This document shows, in pieces, positions 23,042 through 53,294 of a DNA stretch of 64,000 nucleotides. Position numbers and translations under genes: made by a program. This DNA is from Roseovarius sp. M141. GTDB lineage: Bacteria > Pseudomonadota > Alphaproteobacteria > Rhodobacterales > Rhodobacteraceae. Location: contig NZ_VCNH01000008.1 of the NCBI RefSeq assembly GCF_024355225.1, forward strand, positions 2,356,001-2,420,000, in the 5' to 3' direction. Every line of letters begins with the position of its first letter. The stretch's first letter is position 1. Under the pieces are notes generated by a model that saw only the letters and a list, made by a program, of their open reading frames with translations, ran no database searches and had not been told where the DNA came from.

Positions 23042-23077
23042 AAAAAACCGCCGCACATCCGGTATGGATGGCGGCGG
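23042..23077 (-). terminator. Intrinsic terminator downstream of the 43-aa membrane protein gene
   Basis: On the minus strand GCCGCC..ATCC loops back to GGAT..GCGGCGG (outer stem 23071-23077 with 23048-23054; inner stem 23066-23069 with 23057-23060). It is followed by a clean TTTTTT tract (23047-23042). This is the best terminator between the end of recG and the convergent scaffold gene, and it shows that a minus-strand transcript crosses 23080-23470. Confidence 0.75.
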
Positions 23078-23242
23078 AAGGTTGCGTATTCCCGTGAAGG
23101 ACCCTGTGTGCGCCAACCGCAGGTTTGAGATCAAACCCGGGCGCGAACTGTGACAGGCAATATCATTCGCCAAGCATCATGTTTGGGGTCGGTTGATGCG
23201 ACGCGCGAACAGGCACGGAATATCGCAGGCAGAAACGGTTCG

Positions 23243-23374
23243 TCAAAAACCCTGAGCAAGTCCGGGCAAGTATAGGCAGCCCATCAGGATCACCATCAGC
23301 GCTGCAGCGCCGACCGCATCGCCAAGCAGAGTTTCATGCGAGCGGGCGGCGGCGGTTTTGATCTGGTGTATCAT
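23243..23374 (-). CDS. Small membrane protein (43 aa), probably SOS-induced
   Basis: The ORF runs ATG (23374-23372) to TGA (23245-23243). It encodes 43 residues: a basic/polar start (MIHQIKTAAARSHETLLGD) then a hydrophobic helix at about 20-38 (VGAAALMVILMGCLYLPGLA), ending QGF. The predicted topology is one inner-membrane helix with a short cytoplasmic N-terminus. AAGGGAG lies six bases before the ATG, and a clear terminator follows at 23042-23077. A perfect LexA box (23435-23449) and an 8-bp palindrome (23416-23434) precede it. I do not recognise a named family. By size, topology and regulation it resembles SOS cell-division inhibitors such as Caulobacter SidA, but there is no visible sequence match. 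Confidence 0.65.
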   Translation of the reverse strand: MIHQIKTAAARSHETLLGDAVGAAALMVILMGCLYLPGLAQGF

Positions 23375-23415
23375 CTCGGCTCCCTTCGGGCTACTTGTTG
23401 CCTCTTTGTTCTTAT

Positions 23416-23434
23416 TTTACAAAGGGTTTGTAAA
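23416..23434. promoter_or_regulatory. Perfect palindrome TTTACAAA-GGG-TTTGTAAA
   Basis: Two perfectly matched 8-bp arms around GGG lie 42-60 bp upstream of the small membrane protein start and directly abut the LexA box. The AT-rich arms make it unlikely to be a terminator; it looks like a dimeric repressor or activator site. On the minus strand the right end contains TAAAAT, a possible -10 element, so a bound protein would overlap the core promoter. Confidence 0.5.
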
Positions 23435-23449
23435 GAACTTTATGAGAAC
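23435..23449 (-). promoter_or_regulatory. LexA (SOS) box
   Basis: On the minus strand this reads GTTC-TCATAAA-GTTC, an exact match to the alphaproteobacterial LexA operator GTTC-N7-GTTC. It is 61-75 bp upstream of the 43-aa membrane protein ATG and in the same orientation. The recA gene in this window carries the same type of site (53280-53294), supporting a functional LexA regulon. Confidence 0.75.
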
Positions 23450-23476: not shown

Positions 23477-27960
<4,484 letters not shown>

Positions 27961-52145: not shown

Positions 52146-53228
52146 TCACGCCTCCATCAGGTCGTCATCGCCGCCGCTACTGCCCTCGGGGCCGCTCATA
52201 TCGAAATCCAAACCATGCGCCGCGCGGATCTTGTCTTCGATCTCCAGCGCCATCTTGCTGTTTTCCTTCAGGAAGGTCTTGGCGTTCTCACGCCCCTGAC
52301 CGATCCGCTCGTCGCCATAGCTGAACCAACTGCCGGATTTCTCGACCACGCCCGCCTTGACGCCCAGATCCAGAATCTCGCCCATCTTGGAAATGCCTTC
52401 GCCATACATGATGTCGAATTCCACCTGCTTGAAGGGCGGCGCAACCTTGTTCTTGACCACCTTGACGCGGGTCGCGTTACCGACGATTTCGTCGCGGTCC
52501 TTGAGCGCGCCGATACGGCGAATATCCAGACGCACAGAGCTGTAGAATTTCAATGCGTTACCACCCGTCGTCGTTTCGGGGCTACCGAACATGACGCCGA
52601 TTTTCATGCGGATCTGGTTAATGAAGATCACGGTGCATTTCGTACGGCTGATCGAGCCGGTCAGCTTGCGCATTGCCTGACTCATCAGGCGGGCATGTAC
52701 GCCGACGCTGCTGTCGCCCATGTCCCCTTCAAGCTCGGATTTGGGCGTCAGGGCAGCAACCGAATCGACCACGATCATGCTGACCGCGCCCGAACGCACC
52801 AGCGTGTCGACAATCTCCAGCGCCTGTTCGCCCGTGTCGGGCTGCGAAATCAGCAATTCGTCCAGATCGACACCCAGCCTGCGCGCATATTGCGGATCCA
52901 GCGCGTGCTCGGCATCGACAAAGGCGCAAACGCCGCCTTTTTTCTGCTCTTCCGCGACGCAATGCAGCGTCAGCGTGGTCTTGCCTGAGCTTTCGGGGCC
53001 GTAAATCTCGACAACGCGGCCCTTGGGAATGCCGCCGATGCCAAGGGCAATATCGAGGCCCAGCGATCCGGTCGAGGTCGACTCGATATCCTGAATCGGG
53101 TTATCGCCCAGCTTCATGATCGAGCCCTTGCCGAACTGCCGTTCGATCTGCGCAAGCGCGCTATCGAGGGCCTTCTGCTTGTCTGCGCTTTTTTTATTGT
53201 CCATGCTCAAAAGATCTGCCGTTGCCAT
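52146..53228 (-). CDS. recA: Recombinase A
   Basis: This 360-residue protein drives strand exchange and LexA self-cleavage. It has Walker [13 protein letters not shown], the [10 protein letters not shown] and [14 protein letters not shown] blocks and the [14 protein letters not shown] loop, with an acidic C-terminus (GGDDDLMEA). The start [14 protein letters not shown] is typical of Rhodobacteraceae, and AAGGA is eight bases upstream. A LexA box at 53280-53294 lies 52-66 bp before the ATG. Confidence 0.98.
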
Positions 53229-53279: not shown

Positions 53280-53294
53280 GTTCGCCACTTGTTC
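53280..53294 (+). promoter_or_regulatory. LexA (SOS) box upstream of recA
   Basis: GTTC-GCCACTT-GTTC is an exact GTTC-N7-GTTC operator; seen from the recA strand it is GAAC-N7-GAAC. It lies in the divergent region between recA and the sulfotransferase gene. A further inverted pair, GAACA (53319-53323) and TGTTC (53336-53340), lies close by. Confidence 0.8.

Follow-up and report, generated by a model that had tools for sequence, protein, structure and literature searches.

The locus lies on the minus strand of the window, by which is meant the whole 64,000-nucleotide stretch of Roseovarius sp. M141 DNA analysed here. It comprises a very small open reading frame (ORF) behind the DNA-repair gene recG, a promoter region with two LexA-type boxes, and a conserved 3' untranslated region (UTR) that ends in a terminator. 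In the direction of transcription, the features are:

23477..25579, minus: recG, the conserved 5' neighbour, identified by Pfam
23449-23435, minus: LexA box A, GTTC-N7-GTTC, GTTCTCATAAAGTTC, perfect in 121 of 122 distinct loci
23429..23434, minus: -35-like TTTACA abutting box A, a putative promoter element
23411-23397, minus: inverted LexA-like box B, GAAC-N7-CAAC, GAACAAAGAGGCAAC, exact in 115 of 122 loci, a presumed LexA site
First six bases of box B: GAACAA, the probable -10 element
23380..23387, minus: ribosome binding site GAAGGGAG, with GGGAG 5 nt 5' of the ATG
23374-23243, minus: the 43-aa ORF, 43 codons from ATG to TGA
23042..23242, minus: conserved 3'UTR, a candidate 3'UTR-derived small RNA (sRNA), with GTTTCTGCCTGCGA at 23236-23223
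23077-23042, minus: intrinsic terminator, CCGCCGCC...GGCGGCGG-TTTTTT, whose stem covaries in relatives

The first-pass annotation of this DNA had described an ORF at 23374-23243 with a good ribosome binding site, a single hydrophobic helix, a terminator at 23042-23077 and a position just after recG, and each of these elements was recovered. It did not include the inverted box B, the TTTACA next to box A or the conserved 3'UTR. The 43-aa product has a positively charged N-terminal segment, a conserved D19, one transmembrane (TM) helix and an LPG motif close to its C-terminus. There is one hydrophobic stretch, with the best 19-residue window at residues 16-34 (mean hydropathy 2.14); K6 and R11 precede it, and no lysine or arginine follows. 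Lysines and arginines before the TM segment outnumber those after it in all 157 distinct homologous proteins (mean 2.54 versus 0), so an orientation with the N-terminus inside is predicted. AlphaFold2 models the peptide as a single helix over residues 2-41 (mean pLDDT 82.5, pTM 0.44). The peptide is thus predicted to share the SidA-like traits of a single TM segment, an N-in orientation and very small size.

Residues D19, G22, L26 and L34 each reach a weighted frequency of at least 87% among the 157 proteins. Conservation along the helix is periodic: in a scan of angles from 80 to 180 degrees over three windows, the maximum falls at 100 degrees per residue in two windows and at 95 in the third. 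Permutation tests give p values of 0.013, 0.022 and 0.076, the signal being not significant in one of the three. Such periodicity argues moderately for one conserved face making a specific helix-helix contact, rather than for a generic pore.

The gene is real, family-wide and mostly unannotated, judging from its distribution and sequence conservation. A first homologue search matched 34 of 60 genomes, comprising 34 of the 36 from its own genus (the source included) and none of the 24 from other families. Another search, using 54 alignment rows, covered 149 genomes taken from the order, all of them Rhodobacteraceae, and matched 139. A search with a 25-row alignment (E<=0.01) across 394 Rhodobacteraceae genomes, about one per genus, found relatives in 332 and no protein match in the remaining 62. 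The collected set comprises 157 distinct proteins from 191 loci, of which 152 are 38-45 residues long; the five shorter lengths come from the script picking a later methionine. When 20 duplicates are dropped from 142 loci found by protein search, 122 distinct loci remain, all beginning with ATG and all 39-43 codons long. Hosts among 62 of the loci include Roseovarius, Pelagivirga, Limimaricola, Loktanella, Thalassovita and Yoonia. Among 42 sequences of the genus and its closest named relatives, 435 of 860 pairs fell in the usable range and gave a median dN/dS of about 0.28; the ORF is evidently under purifying selection.

The neighbourhood is similarly stable. In 141 of 142 loci, or 121 of the 122 distinct ones, the micropeptide gene follows a recG that is read in its own direction; the one remaining locus is at a contig end. 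The distance from recG to the ATG has a median of 114 nt (range 81-586). The next gene in the window, which has no Pfam family, has a convergent homologue near the locus in 126 of 142 cases. Among the 120 database matches listed, most are nameless, and those with names are called hypothetical or uncharacterized. Pfam, NCBIfam, PHROGs and PDB searches gave nothing convincing; isolated weak matches, such as EccD at E 0.008 with a single member out of 25, are taken as an effect of TM composition. A plasmid- or phage-borne origin was considered and rejected, the window's peptide having no match there. In the open-licence literature, the gene family is absent among the matches listed.

Conservation of the ORF together with its box in relatives had been set beforehand as the sequence test of the first-pass annotation, which clearly withstands it. 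The ORF recurs in the 332 genomes mentioned, and all 122 distinct homologues, chosen by protein alone, are preceded by a composite element. This consists of GTTC-N7-GTTC, a spacer of 22-24 bp starting mostly with TTTAC, and an inverted GAAC-N7-CAAC, with at most one mismatch allowed. Both boxes are perfect in 114 loci, one mismatch occurs in box B in seven and in box A in one, and the spacer is 23 nt in 113 loci, 24 nt in five and 22 nt in four. The recA operator has the form GAAC-N7-GAAC, from which box B departs at one of eight half-site bases. The consensus of 113 aligned promoters is GTTCnCaaATGTTCtYAwAAAGTTCTTTACa-N11-AwaTGAGAACAAAGrGGCAACA, and TTTAC stands directly 3' of box A in 104 of them. 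In the window the gap between TTTACA and GAACAA is 17 nt; a TG lies ahead of the second hexamer in 111 of the 113 relatives, with TA in the window. The 17-nt gap and the frequent TG point to an extended -10 promoter, which is likely covered by box B. Of the 113 promoters, 96 have a third exact GTTC half site 10 bp 5' of box A.

The composite carries weight that a single box does not. The perfect GTTC-N7-GTTC box on which the first-pass annotation relied is indeed present at 23449-23435, but taken alone it is at chance level: the window holds two matches against 1.45 expected, 44 of 100 shuffles reach at least two, and a lone box is therefore not significant and was discarded as evidence. Across the source genome, 68 + 68 boxes were counted versus 47 + 46 for the reversed pattern. 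A looser form of the composite occurs in that genome only at the micropeptide gene and in the recA region, where it has the opposite orientation to recA and another spacing. Searched as bare DNA, the composite is found in 300 of the 394 family genomes, and one match to the reversed pattern was seen by eye. Among 385 genomes drawn from the class, seven match, namely all five Rhodobacteraceae and two of the 380 others.

As the promoter is more constant than the protein, it also serves to find micropeptides that protein searches miss. By reading the tables by eye, the composite promoter was found in 19 of the 62 genomes that the protein search had missed, bringing the genomes with one or the other to 351 of 394 and leaving 43 with neither. 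Nine of these 19 were inspected, and in eight an ORF of 38-45 aa with a single helix lies directly behind the promoter (for example MKTVAHVILHHPHRTLIEDALGVIALFAGLFTGLHLAF), two of them without a recognisable box B. Of 50 loci chosen by promoter (48 genomes, two of them represented twice), 49 are followed by a TM ORF of 38-45 aa. The ninth of the inspected genomes (G113), with an atypical promoter match, has no micropeptide ORF behind it.

A perfect box elsewhere in the window provides an internal positive control, as it lies upstream of recA:

53280-53294: LexA box of recA, perfect, the sole other perfect box in the window, with an extra GTTC half site
52389-53174, minus: recA, with a Pfam RecA match

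GTTC-N7-GTTC is the LexA box of Caulobacter as given in PMC12700426, and in Dinoroseobacter LexA sites are predicted at lexA, recA, dprA and other genes (PMC6473078). In the source genome such boxes lie 5' of lexA (GTTCTACGCATGTTC), uvrA (GTTCCTCATCTGTTC), a uvrD/pcrA-type helicase gene (GTTCAGCCTATGTTC) and recA (GTTCGCCACTTGTTC); NCBIfam confirms LexA, and also UvrA and the PcrA/UvrD helicase from their N-terminal parts. The micropeptide gene, with a conserved operator at its promoter, has the mark of a member of the alphaproteobacterial LexA/SOS regulon, and LexA control of it is very likely from these sequence patterns. That the locus encodes a LexA-controlled, conserved membrane micropeptide can be held with high confidence. 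The double box suggests that the product is kept silent unless DNA is damaged.

The function that best fits these features is a division checkpoint of the SidA kind, a reading, drawn by analogy, to which a probability of about 0.6 may be assigned. LexA would bracket the promoter, with box A set against the -35 element and the inverted box B over the -10 element and the start, and occupancy of both boxes would keep the gene tightly off. DNA damage would then remove LexA and release a short transcript, from which a peptide of some 40 residues would be made and inserted into the inner membrane, its N-terminus on the inner side and one face of its helix conserved. Its partner in the membrane would, by analogy, most likely be the FtsW/FtsI/FtsN complex of septal wall synthesis, and by binding it the peptide would delay division until repair is complete, as SidA does in Caulobacter. 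Were this so, the peptide would be the missing division brake of Rhodobacteraceae after DNA damage. Weighing against this reading are the 62 genomes without a protein match, 43 of which also lack the promoter, the helix periodicity that falls short of significance in one window, and the weak or missing matches to the SidA model described below. In any case, this mostly unannotated gene keeps an SOS promoter that hardly varies across the family.

SidA of Caulobacter crescentus is a LexA-regulated, tiny inner-membrane protein, according to PMC4211646 and PMC12700426, and the recG-site peptide resembles it both in its size class and predicted membrane location and in its probable control through GTTC-N7-GTTC. 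The two differ in length (29 residues in SidA versus 40-43) and in place, as the recG-site gene follows recG whereas the SidA-like member described below precedes dnaE. They differ also in regulation: about 97% of Caulobacter SOS promoters carry one box (PMC12700426), in contrast to the two boxes and conserved 3'UTR of the recG-site gene. The SidA model NF033228 matched none of 25 family members at E up to 1 and none of four recG-site peptides at E up to 10. The first-pass annotation had seen no sequence similarity to SidA, and direct searches bear this out; micropeptides before dnaE do, however, suggest a remote connection at the profile level.

Other division inhibitors are less close. YneA, SosA and ChiZ of Gram-positive bacteria are described in PMC13396833 as SOS-induced small membrane proteins acting on late septal synthesis, YneA binding FtsW and the others being predicted to. 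They are of a similar SOS type, but the recG-site peptide has no extracellular domain, few residues after the helix and no Pfam match. A LysM domain after the TM segment, as in YneA and ChiZ, is absent from an ORF that ends just past its helix. The Caulobacter protein DidA, a damage-induced division inhibitor (PMC4211646), is likewise small with a single TM segment, but it has 71 aa, is independent of SOS and is driven by DriD. SulA, which acts on FtsZ polymerisation according to the same source, is similar only in concept as an SOS division inhibitor, and recG-site peptides gave no Pfam or NCBIfam match to it.

The link to SidA comes from a second genomic site. In the two alphaproteobacterial genomes from outside the family that carry the composite promoter (G614 and G805, both of one family), it lies between dnaE and an ABC ATPase gene, which Pfam assigns to ABC transporters and which appears lolD-like by eye. 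There the promoters (L275/L282 and L276/L283) drive different TM ORFs of 34-37 aa. Among 60 genomes of other families, the 590 bp 5' of the dnaE match hold a perfect box in 16; leaving out G614, which was already known, removes this bias and gives 15 of 59. A control stretch of equal length inside dnaE has one in 3 of 90, and the same 590 bp in Rhodobacteraceae (the source genome and 29 genomes without a recG-site match) have one in 0 of 30. By a lenient criterion applied without a control, 11 of the 16 boxed sites have a TM ORF of 24-60 aa, and one more has a 29-aa ORF of weaker hydropathy. The other four boxes are close to the dnaE match and lack such an ORF. LexA-boxed TM micropeptides before dnaE, spread over many families, are found at L284, L285, L291, L292, L299, L304, L311, L350, L351, L357 and L365.

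The 29-aa peptide of one such locus (L299) is the sole match to the SidA model among the 12 dnaE-site peptides, covering 27 of 29 positions at 20.5 bits, which is below the curated cut-off of 35 bits. This match makes the position before dnaE probably a SidA site. When recG-site and dnaE-site profiles are compared by hhalign, the probability is 43%, with the conserved aspartate and the helix aligned, for a class of segment (TM) that aligns easily. The profile score is 18.9, which none of 150 column shuffles reaches; the best of them scores 11.9, and the reversed alignment scores 8.7. Distant homology of the two groups is possible on this basis, and SidA-type peptides, instead of being peculiar to Caulobacter, may form a rapidly evolving lineage that spans the class.

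The peptide might instead belong with TisB and DinQ, SOS-induced dormancy peptides that act on the membrane, and would then depolarise it without blocking the divisome. Small size, a single helix and a tight double operator would all suit a toxic product. The helix, however, is hydrophobic with a conserved face and an aspartate at its inner end, and is not plainly amphipathic. The tisB gene has a long 5' leader, but here box A starts 70-110 nt 5' of the ATG, which leaves no room for one. The gene is also present in most genera of the family, a distribution that, to our knowledge, is unlike that of type I toxins. Such a toxin is thus unlikely.

The 3'UTR raises a different question for the checkpoint reading, since its conservation leaves room for a transcript whose effect comes in part or entirely from the RNA, which counts against a peptide acting alone. 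A terminator-like hairpin follows the ORF in 118 of 119 loci, mostly 120-180 nt past the stop, the hairpins picked being earlier and doubtful in eight (L034, L037, L043, L105, L134, L136, L138 and L153). A simple terminator scan did not pick up the 23077-23042 hairpin of the window. Repeated CTGCCTG/CCTGTCCC motifs occur in the UTR; CTGCCT lies ahead of the hairpin in 102 of 119 loci and CTGTCC in 96. Among 44 diverse UTRs that end in a GC-rich terminator, CTGCCT is found in 39, CTGTCC in 38 and TGTCCC in 39, against 6.2, 4.3 and 5.3 expected from dinucleotide shuffles. The UTR of the window, terminator included, folds with a z score of -3.68, and none of 200 shuffles is as stable.

RNAalifold supports the terminator only, with two-sided changes in 5 of its 12 stem pairs. 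A GCATC/GATGC hairpin around CTGTCCC was tried and rejected: 60.7% of alignment cells are paired in the tested register versus 70.7% when it is slid by +2, so the result depends on the alignment. In an alignment-free test for stems of at least 5 pairs, set against mononucleotide-shuffled flanks only, TGTCCC is enclosed in 82% versus 41% and TGCCTC in 89% versus 36%; stems around CTGCCTG were not favoured. Rfam 15 gave no UTR match on the transcript strand for the window region (E up to 1) or eight loci (E up to 0.5); its lone match, Hrs1 (E 0.24), is on the opposite strand over the UTR end of one locus (L168) and is taken as chance. Rhodobacter sphaeroides makes several 3'UTR-derived sRNAs, as PMC8625941 and PMC9779115 report, and a processed sRNA from the micropeptide 3'UTR is by analogy a fair guess. 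One of that species' RNAs, UdsC, was rejected as the counterpart, the promoter of its parent transcript being reported as RpoHII-dependent.

It could even be that the locus acts chiefly through an SOS-induced sRNA derived from its conserved 3'UTR and that the peptide is of lesser importance. The motif excess, the near-universal hairpin, the stable fold and the R. sphaeroides precedent (PMC8625941) would agree with this. Against it, the ORF itself is under purifying selection, with its ATG, length and residues fixed, and the conserved structure found by RNAalifold is the terminator, the GCATC/GATGC helix being unsupported in the tested register; an RNA acting in the main by itself is accordingly quite improbable. 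More plausible, if still tentative, is a transcript that does both family-wide. It would encode a checkpoint peptide of about 40 aa and yield from its 3'UTR an sRNA, at most about 200 nt long, in which CUGCCUG/CCUGUCCC seeds recur, as the Rhodobacteraceae branch of a class-wide SidA-like lineage also found in the lolD-dnaE gap. A single switch with a double LexA box would then stop division and retune translation together.

Rhodobacteraceae are rich in gene transfer agents (GTAs), and the phyletic range of the micropeptide gene is this same family. That the peptide regulates a membrane process other than division, such as GTA release, a membrane protease or envelope stress, would accord with the contact of LexA with GTA/CckA control in Rhodobacter capsulatus and Dinoroseobacter (PMC6473078 and PMC9638019), but the conserved neighbour is recG and no GTA or envelope gene, and this synteny and the SidA-type precedent at dnaE make it very unlikely.

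Beyond the window's two boxes, 50 of the 136 in the source genome were examined by script, 20 of them picked by look. Most of those not mentioned above are within genes or before unrelated genes, as chance predicts. The lexA promoter (L187, 1180-1240) has closely spaced GAAC repeats, GAAC-N7-GAAC and GAAC-N6-GAAC. The box GTTCTTGTTCTGTTC occurs three times with identical flanks (L003, L189 and L190), probably within a repeated mobile element. A 97-aa ORF (MESTTYALPATPKQ...) on contig C4 begins 35 nt after a perfect LexA box (L023), and may be an SOS gene carried by an extrachromosomal replicon.
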